Assembly (NCBI GenBank): GCA_029935705.1
Contig: JAOZJU010000013.1
Location: 1-35,722, forward strand
From: Arcobacteraceae bacterium
GTDB taxonomy: Bacteria > Campylobacterota > Campylobacteria > Campylobacterales > Arcobacteraceae
Direction: 5' to 3'
DNA length: 35,722 nucleotides
Numbering within the stretch: position 1 is the stretch's first letter; each line of letters opens with the position of its first letter. Under the pieces are notes generated by a model. The model made no database searches. It was not told the origin of the DNA and saw nothing but the letters and a program-made list of their open reading frames with translations. Made by a program: the position numbers and the translations under genes. Shown piece by piece: positions 22,976 to 28,389 of the stretch.

Positions 22976-26369
<3,394 letters not shown>

Positions 26370-26510
26370 ATTTTTTCCTTTTATTATATTATTTTAGTAG
26401 TATGTAGTAGGCACAGTGAATATGTGAATAACTATTATTTTACTTTATTTTAATTGAAGATTTATATGTGAATAAAATAGAAAATTATTCACATATAAAT
26501 CTTCAATTTT
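26370..26510. other. oriC: Probable replication origin (oriC) between dnaA and dnaN
   Basis: The 133-base gap plus the dnaA 3' end contains DnaA-box-like 9-mers: TTATTCACA on the minus strand at 26423-26431 and 26467-26475, TTATTCACA on the plus strand at 26485-26493, and ATATTCACT on the minus strand at 26415-26423, overlapping the first by one base. This motif is close to the box described for Campylobacterota, which differs from the E. coli TTATCCACA. A/T-only stretches (around 26376-26397 and 26431-26455) could be the unwinding element. Origins of several Campylobacterota have been placed in this gap. Gene direction reverses across dnaA, in agreement. Confidence 0.72.
26452..26508. repeat. 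Perfect 24-bp inverted repeat at the dnaA end, carrying two DnaA boxes
   Basis: Positions 26452-26475 and 26485-26508 are exact reverse complements, with a nine-base spacer (AATAGAAAA). Each arm contains one TTATTCACA, so the boxes face each other. The right arm overlaps the dnaA stop codon (26503-26505). Downstream of dnaA on the minus strand there is no U-run, whereas the plus-strand side has ATTTTTA, so it is a poor terminator for dnaA. It could still be an RNA hairpin, a cruciform or a paired DnaA-binding site. Confidence 0.75.
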
Positions 26511-27825
26511 TACTATCTATGATCTTCTTTTCTAAATCATCTACGAGAAGTTTAAAATCTTCATCTTCGTTTATTATCTCTTGTGTTTTTTTAATATTTT
26601 TTGATATTGATGAATGGTTTTTCATCTGTAGATGTTTTGCTATATCTGGCATAGAGTTTATAGTCAGCTTTCTTGAAAGAAATATTACTATTCTTCTTGC
26701 TTGGACTATTTTTGTCATTCTTTTTGCACTTTTAAGATCGTTTGCTTTTATATTTAACACTTTTGAGACCATCTTTATGATGTCTATTATGGTTATCTCT
26801 TTATTTTTTTCTTTTATTTGATTTTTGAGAAGTTGTTTTACAAGATGAATATCAAGTGTTTGATCAAGTAGTTTTACACTTGCATTTATTCTTATGATTA
26901 TACTCTCAATCTCTCGTATAGAGCTGTTTACATTTACAGCTATGTAGTTTATAATCTCATTATTTAGATCGATACCATTTATCTCACTTTTCTTTTTGAT
27001 TATGTTTATTTTTGTTTCAAGTTTTGGTGGCTTGATATCTGCTATCATTCCCCATTCAAATCTAGTTTTTAGCCTTTTGATCAGATGCGGTATCTGCGAT
27101 GGCATCCTATCGCTTGTCATGATTATCTGTTTGTTTGTAGAGTGAAGATAATTAAAAGTATGAAAAAACTCATCTTGTGTTTTCTCTTTGTTTGTAAGGT
27201 ATTGGATATCATCAAGTAGTAAAATATCGCACTTTCTATATTTGTCTCTAAAGTGTGGCATCGATTTTTTCTTGATTGAAAAAGTAAAATCATTCATAAA
27301 ATCTTCAGCAGTAAGATATATAACCTTTTTTCCACTTTTTATACTTTCATTGCCTACTGCTTGAAGTAGATGTGTTTTACCAAGTCCTGTATCTCCATAT
27401 ATAAAGATAGGGTTGTATTGTTTGATACCTTTTTCAACAAATGTTTTAGATACTGTATATGCCATCTGGTTTGATGAACCTACAACAAAACTTTCAAATG
27501 TATATGCAGGATTTAATATAGGGTTTATCTTGTCTTTTTCGTATTGTTCATCGAGTATCTGCTCTTTTTTTGTTTTTTTAATATCTCCACGAACTGCTAT
27601 ATCTATCTTCTCAATTTTTTTAAATATTTCAAATGTTTTGAGATTTTTTTCTAAAATTTTGATAAATTTTGTATTGATATAGGTCGATATAAATCTATTT
27701 GGAACTTCAAAATAGATCGTTTTGTTATCTGCTGAAAGTTTTTTGTAGTTTAGTTGAGATATAAAATTTGTTATATGGTTTTCATCTATTTTATTTTTTA
27801 GTATATTTTGTATTTTACTATTCAT
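26503..27825 (-). CDS. dnaA: Chromosomal replication initiator DnaA
   Basis: DnaA binds origin boxes and, as an ATP-bound filament, melts the origin. The 440 residues comprise an N-terminal helicase-loading domain, a linker, the AAA+ domain with Walker A GDTGLGKT (144-151) and Walker B CDILLLDDIQYL (199-210), MTSDRMPSQIPHL and RFEWGMIADI. The C-terminal DNA-binding helices include IVQARRIVIFLSRKLT and HLQMKNHSSISKNIKK, where NHSSISKNI corresponds to the DHTTV-type signature. The start is ATG at 27823-27825. No Shine-Dalgarno sequence is visible before it. Confidence 0.97.
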   Translation of the reverse strand: MNSKIQNILKNKIDENHITNFISQLNYKKLSADNKTIYFEVPNRFISTYINTKFIKILEKNLKTFEIFKKIEKIDIAVRGDIKKTKKEQILDEQYEKDKINPILNPAYTFESFVVGSSNQMAYTVSKTFVEKGIKQYNPIFIYGDTGLGKTHLLQAVGNESIKSGKKVIYLTAEDFMNDFTFSIKKKSMPHFRDKYRKCDILLLDDIQYLTNKEKTQDEFFHTFNYLHSTNKQIIMTSDRMPSQIPHLIKRLKTRFEWGMIADIKPPKLETKINIIKKKSEINGIDLNNEIINYIAVNVNSSIREIESIIIRINASVKLLDQTLDIHLVKQLLKNQIKEKNKEITIIDIIKMVSKVLNIKANDLKSAKRMTKIVQARRIVIFLSRKLTINSMPDIAKHLQMKNHSSISKNIKKTQEIINEDEDFKLLVDDLEKKIIDSKN

Positions 27826-27865: not shown

Positions 27866-27900
27866 ATTGATGTGAAATAAAAAAATTTGAGATATTAGAT

Positions 27901-28389
27901 ATGAATAAGTTAGAAAATTGTTATATATTAGGCATAGATCCAGGCACTATAAATTGTGGTTTTGCTGTTTTATATGTGAATAGAGGTGAAAAAGTTCTAA
28001 AAGAAGCAGGTGTGATAAAGATAAAATCCAAAGTTTTACAAGAGCAGATTTTGGAGCTATCAACTGCTTTGGATATATTGTTTGAAAAGTATAGATTTTC
28101 AAAAGTAGCTGTGGAGGATATATTTTTTGCTTTTAATCCAAAAACTGTCTTAAAATTAGCACAATTTAGAGGAGCATTAAGCTTAATCATACTACAAAAG
28201 TTTGGTATATTTAGTGAATACACCCCACTTCAAATCAAAAAAACAGTAACAGGCAAAGCAAAAGCAACAAAAGAGCAGGTAAACTATATGGTAAAAACTA
28301 TTTTAAATATAAAAAAACCTATAAAACCACTTGATGTGAGTGATGCTATAGCAATAGCGCTTACAGAGTATCAACACAAAGGCATATGA
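27901..28389 (+). CDS. ruvC: Holliday junction endonuclease RuvC
   Basis: RuvC resolves Holliday junctions together with RuvAB. The 162 residues carry the four acidic catalytic positions: Asp13 in [11 protein letters not shown], Glu72 in [12 protein letters not shown], and Asp145 and Asp148 in [25 protein letters not shown] and the basic [11 protein letters not shown] are also typical. It is divergent from dnaA. Its stop overlaps the start of ribE. Confidence 0.96.

Follow-up and report, generated by a model that had tools for sequence, protein, structure and literature searches.

In the analysed stretch of 35,722 nucleotides (the window), the inverted repeat that overlaps the dnaA stop codon is most plausibly the DUE-distal half of an oriC2 located in the dnaA-dnaN gap, i.e. 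a tail-to-tail pair of DnaA boxes whose flanks have been made symmetric in the window's lineage, and from the sequence and its comparison with relatives we would give this reading a probability of roughly 80%. DnaA protein-binding sites are accordingly the best-supported candidate for what matters in the repeat. The spacing of these predicted boxes points further than the window, and the order-wide, nearly fixed distance between the outward and the DUE-proximal box is a more interesting result than the palindrome in which the outward box happens to lie here.

Origin layout and the inverted repeat

The features of the locus are as follows, with positions given on the forward strand of the window.

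25302..26369, minus strand: dnaN, 355 aa, DNA polymerase III beta with three domains (Pfam)
26369..26398: likely DUE core, the 30 bp of oriC2 with the lowest stability (99.9th percentile across the window), with a 4-bp overlap with the trio
26395..26410, minus strand: DnaA-trio-like run CTACTACATACTACTA, assigned by sequence, with the same motif in relatives
26415..26423, minus strand: weaker twin box ATATTCACT, 8 bp nearer the DUE than the DUE-proximal box
26423..26431, minus strand: DUE-proximal (R1-type) DnaA box TTATTCACA, 62 bp from the outward box
26452..26475: inverted-repeat arm on the dnaN side
26467..26475, minus strand: partner DnaA box TTATTCACA, whose start is 18 bp from that of the outward box
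26476..26484: loop of the inverted repeat, 9 nt
26485..26493, plus strand: DUE-distal, outward-pointing DnaA box TTATTCACA, with a counterpart in relatives
26485..26508: dnaA-proximal arm of the inverted repeat, containing the dnaA stop codon TGA (26503-26505)
26503..27825, minus strand: dnaA, 440 aa, Pfam Bac_DnaA, Bac_DnaA_C and DnaA_N
27871..28019, minus strand: candidate oriC1, a group of four same-orientation boxes (no more than 1 mismatch each) that spans part of the ruvC-dnaA gap and the 5′ end of ruvC
27901-28389, plus strand: ruvC (Pfam)

The dnaA-dnaN gap comprises 133 bp and, read on the minus strand, leads from the palindrome through TTATTCACA and its weaker twin ATATTCACT, a short spacer, CTACTACATACTACTA and an AT-rich run into dnaN, and all three exact copies of TTATTCACA in the window fall within 71 bp of this gap. 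Several attributes of an oriC2 were found together, namely a dnaA-dnaN position in a ruvC-dnaA-dnaN locus, a cluster of DnaA boxes with the core TTCAC, a DUE-proximal box directed towards the DUE with a DUE-distal box directed oppositely, and, by prediction, a neighbouring DnaA-trio with a helically unstable DUE. The sign of the GC skew flips around 26-27 kb, where gene orientation diverges as well. The boxes of the candidate oriC1 sit mostly within the 5′ end of ruvC and overlap its coding sequence. HP1021-type boxes have the motif TGTTWCW, and none was found in the dnaA-dnaN gap; a comparison with plasmids gave no match. The predicted origin of a genome not studied before is now precisely located.

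The coordinates bear out what the earlier note had read at the dnaA end, i.e. that the two arms of 24 nt match exactly (100% complementary across the 9-nt loop), that each holds one TTATTCACA (26467-26475 on the minus and 26485-26493 on the plus strand) and that the dnaA stop codon lies in the right arm. The same note had described the boxes as facing each other; by the 5′-TTATTCACA-3′ convention, they instead point away from each other, tail-to-tail and outward.

The palindrome is real and statistically extreme. By scanning the window plus 40 contig stretches (419 kb, about a third of the genome) for perfect inverted repeats with loops of 3-30 nt, we found its 24 bp to be the longest, followed by repeats of 19, 17, 16, 16 and 15 bp, while three first-order Markov copies of the 419 kb yielded 14 at most. 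The two boxes are insufficient to explain the palindrome, because 15 more outer pairs match beyond the two 9-mers, with a chance of about 9e-8 under the local base composition. The arrangement TGTGAATAA-N9-TTATTCACA occurs a single time in the genome, and the next match carries 3 mismatches. A dispersed repeated element was rejected, the arm having no second genomic copy at fewer than 3 mismatches. That the palindrome was produced by the assembly or by a fold-back event is hardly credible: the genome is indeed a draft in 78 contigs, but each flank is unique and where it belongs: the dnaA frame runs uninterrupted to its stop codon on one side, and on the other the DUE-proximal box and the trio stand at a spacing like that of a genome of the same genus (L002). 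The preservation of distances on both flanks disfavours a fold-back join in particular.

DnaA-box spacing across the order

The dnaA-dnaN gaps were read in 97 genomes of the window's family (its own included) and in 48 from other families of the order, of which 134 genomes, again with the window's own, were usable for spacing counts (91 of the family and 43 from other families). Gene order and box sequence suggest Arcobacteraceae as the family and Campylobacterales as the order; a contig scan with DnaA gave matches mainly in remote phyla and was left out of the comparison. Since the genomes share ancestry, their counts do not represent independent events, and the agreement of spacing between families is a stronger argument than the number of genomes. 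Among the 97 family genomes, box-like sites amounted to 3.7 per gap versus 0.34 in shuffles, and their pattern was - - + + in 65 and - - + in 25 (90 of 97 together); two outward boxes lay exactly 10 bp apart in 90 family genomes.

Between the innermost outward box and the DUE-proximal box lay 61-63 bp in 35 of the 43 genomes of other families, a spacing found in 15 of these families, and 70-71 bp in 76 of the 91 genomes of the window's family, while shuffled sequences placed only 0.6 and 0.7 genomes on average at 61-63 bp and 70-71 bp, respectively, and at most 3. The outward box near the dnaA stop recurs in relatives, often with a partner site 18-20 bp away (70 of 91 family genomes and 14 of 43 others, versus 1.9% in shuffles), and this partner is weak or missing in about a third of the genomes. 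The earlier suggestion that the element could pair DnaA protomers in opposite orientation fits these data, as the boxes belong to oriC2 and the opposed pair recurs in relatives at near-fixed spacing.

In the window's genome the partner lies at 18 bp and the DUE-proximal box at 62 bp, and the corresponding values in L002 are 19 and 61 bp. Two further genus mates, L003 and L004, have their nearest outward box at 52 bp, with a weaker one, picked by eye, at 62 bp. Judged by these predicted sites, the window's genus shares the spacing of the other families, unlike its own family.

A common box pattern was not reported in the published comparison of four species (PMC5043019), and our literature searches, which covered open-licence papers, returned no report of a conserved spacing in this group, although an earlier report elsewhere is possible. 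The distance between oppositely oriented boxes is conserved in many families of the order, contrary to the conclusion drawn from the four species, so that a rule fixing the spacing of two opposed DnaA subcomplexes becomes testable.

Hairpin conservation and the source of the symmetry

When arm complementarity was followed from the dyad outward, within-genome pairing was close to the cross-genome control at every position, inside as well as outside the boxes, and a conserved hairpin was rejected by this control. As the arms pair equally well within and between genomes, the boxes, as protein-binding sites, account for what is conserved in the element. None of the three genus mates (L002, L003 and L004) has the extended arms, nor does any other relative examined; the longest paired run in any of them is 10 bp, and most have 4-6 bp. 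In many family genomes the partner site TAATCAC pairs incompletely with the outward box. A conserved inverted repeat with covarying arms, which the earlier note had proposed to seek in the dnaA-dnaN gaps of relatives, was not found, and its check against close relatives came out divided, with the palindrome absent and the boxes present. The perfect palindrome is probably a quirk of the lineage. Short opposed-box palindromes were seen just past the dnaA stop in two genomes of other families, TGTGAATAA-N5-TTATTCACA right after it in L271 and GTGAACAAA-N8-TTTGTTCAC directly past it in L029.

The hairpin might alternatively work as DNA, either through cruciform extrusion under supercoiling or through a hairpin in one single strand that presents a duplex DnaA box and loads the helicase in the manner of an A-site. 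Either DNA strand is predicted to fold into a 24-bp stem of -21.1 kcal/mol (DNA parameters) with a complete box inside, and the loading of DnaB by a DnaA-box hairpin is established in vitro, according to PMC6127211, which cites Masai 1990; but with the extended arms in no other genome examined, box arms that do not covary and a TAATCAC partner that in family genomes often pairs incompletely with the outward box, we consider such a function improbable. The cruciform extrusion suggested earlier is left without comparative support by the same absence of the arms and of covariation. Similarly improbable is the joint reading in which the orisomes of the order use a fixed ruler, with 61-63 bp (about six helical turns) between the outward DUE-distal and the DUE-proximal box, or 70-71 bp (nearly seven turns) for most genomes of the window's family, and in which the distal pair here is in addition a true DnaA-box hairpin that loads the helicase or governs opening.

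A role in the dnaA mRNA, as a 3′-end, processing or attenuation hairpin between dnaA and dnaN, is unlikely too, if slightly less so. The RNA stem is strong (-28.8 kcal/mol, z -8.2) and long perfect hairpins also occur between other co-oriented genes of this genome, yet the dnaA-dnaN strand carries no U-tract after the stem, the terminator scan finds none there, the hairpin is not kept in relatives, and Rfam gives only sub-threshold, irrelevant miRNA matches. The mRNA role put forward before thus lacks comparative support for the same reasons as the cruciform, the extended arms being missing from the three same-genus genomes and all other relatives examined and the arms showing no covariation. 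An intrinsic terminator of dnaA was rejected, a stem followed by a U-tract not being found on the transcribed strand; the earlier note had rightly placed the U-run on the wrong side for such a terminator, the T run at 26507-26511 being 3′ of the hairpin on the plus strand only.

Under the preferred oriC2 reading, DnaA bound at the DUE-proximal box and the weak twin beside it would extend over the trio and open the DUE. A DnaA subcomplex of opposite polarity would form at the outward box and its partner and help to recruit the second helicase. Such a role of opposed subcomplexes has been proposed for E. coli and discussed for epsilonproteobacterial origins (PMC5043019). The additional 15 bp of symmetry per side would have arisen in place in the window's lineage with the length almost unchanged; the spacing (18 and 62 bp versus 19 and 61 bp in L002) is nearly the same, and therefore no element was inserted. 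The simplest source would be homogenisation of an existing imperfect palindrome by template switching, for which a function of the symmetry is not required, and the homogenisation of arms at imperfect palindromes by this process is known (PMC8604942, PMC7202029). The DnaA proteins of the nearest relatives are only 61-64% identical, a distance too large for the ancestral arm sequence, or the arm that was copied, to be read.

The 419 kb contain other perfect hairpins of at least 15 bp, more than chance would give, and these too are found in gaps or at the edges of genes. This would fit a general mutational tendency in sequence free of coding constraint, or some unrecognised use of hairpins. Two of them are a perfect 17-bp hairpin that separates nusG from the gene for ribosomal protein L11 (L207, 2380-2428) and a perfect 19-bp hairpin with a folB-like gene on one side and the gene for NADH-quinone oxidoreductase chain 3 on the other (L211, 2652-2700).

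Comparison with known origins

In the A-site of the ABC primosome, as described in PMC6127211 after Masai 1990, a hairpin stem likewise contains a DnaA box, a fold that is predicted here; by that account, the A-site acts on single-stranded DNA in vitro, whereas the predicted hairpin of the window lies in a chromosomal origin. Compared by general layout, the oriC of Campylobacter jejuni is alike in its dnaA-dnaN gap, twin DUE-proximal boxes, DnaA-trio and reach into the dnaA 3′ end, but differs in having seven footprinted boxes, two of them within dnaA (PMC6052347). The closest likeness is with the epsilonproteobacterial oriC2 of A. butzleri, W. succinogenes and S. denitrificans (PMC5043019). 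There, oppositely directed arrays and a DUE occupy the dnaA-dnaN region, and the window has in common with this oriC2 the dnaA-dnaN site, boxes with the TTCAC core, an R1-type DUE-proximal box, an outward DUE-distal box and two opposed arrays. Two differences stand out, namely that two boxes of the window's genome are embedded in a perfect 24-bp palindrome and that it has a single outward box, against two in most genomes of the family. By its predicted architecture, the element is a variant of the known epsilonproteobacterial oriC2.
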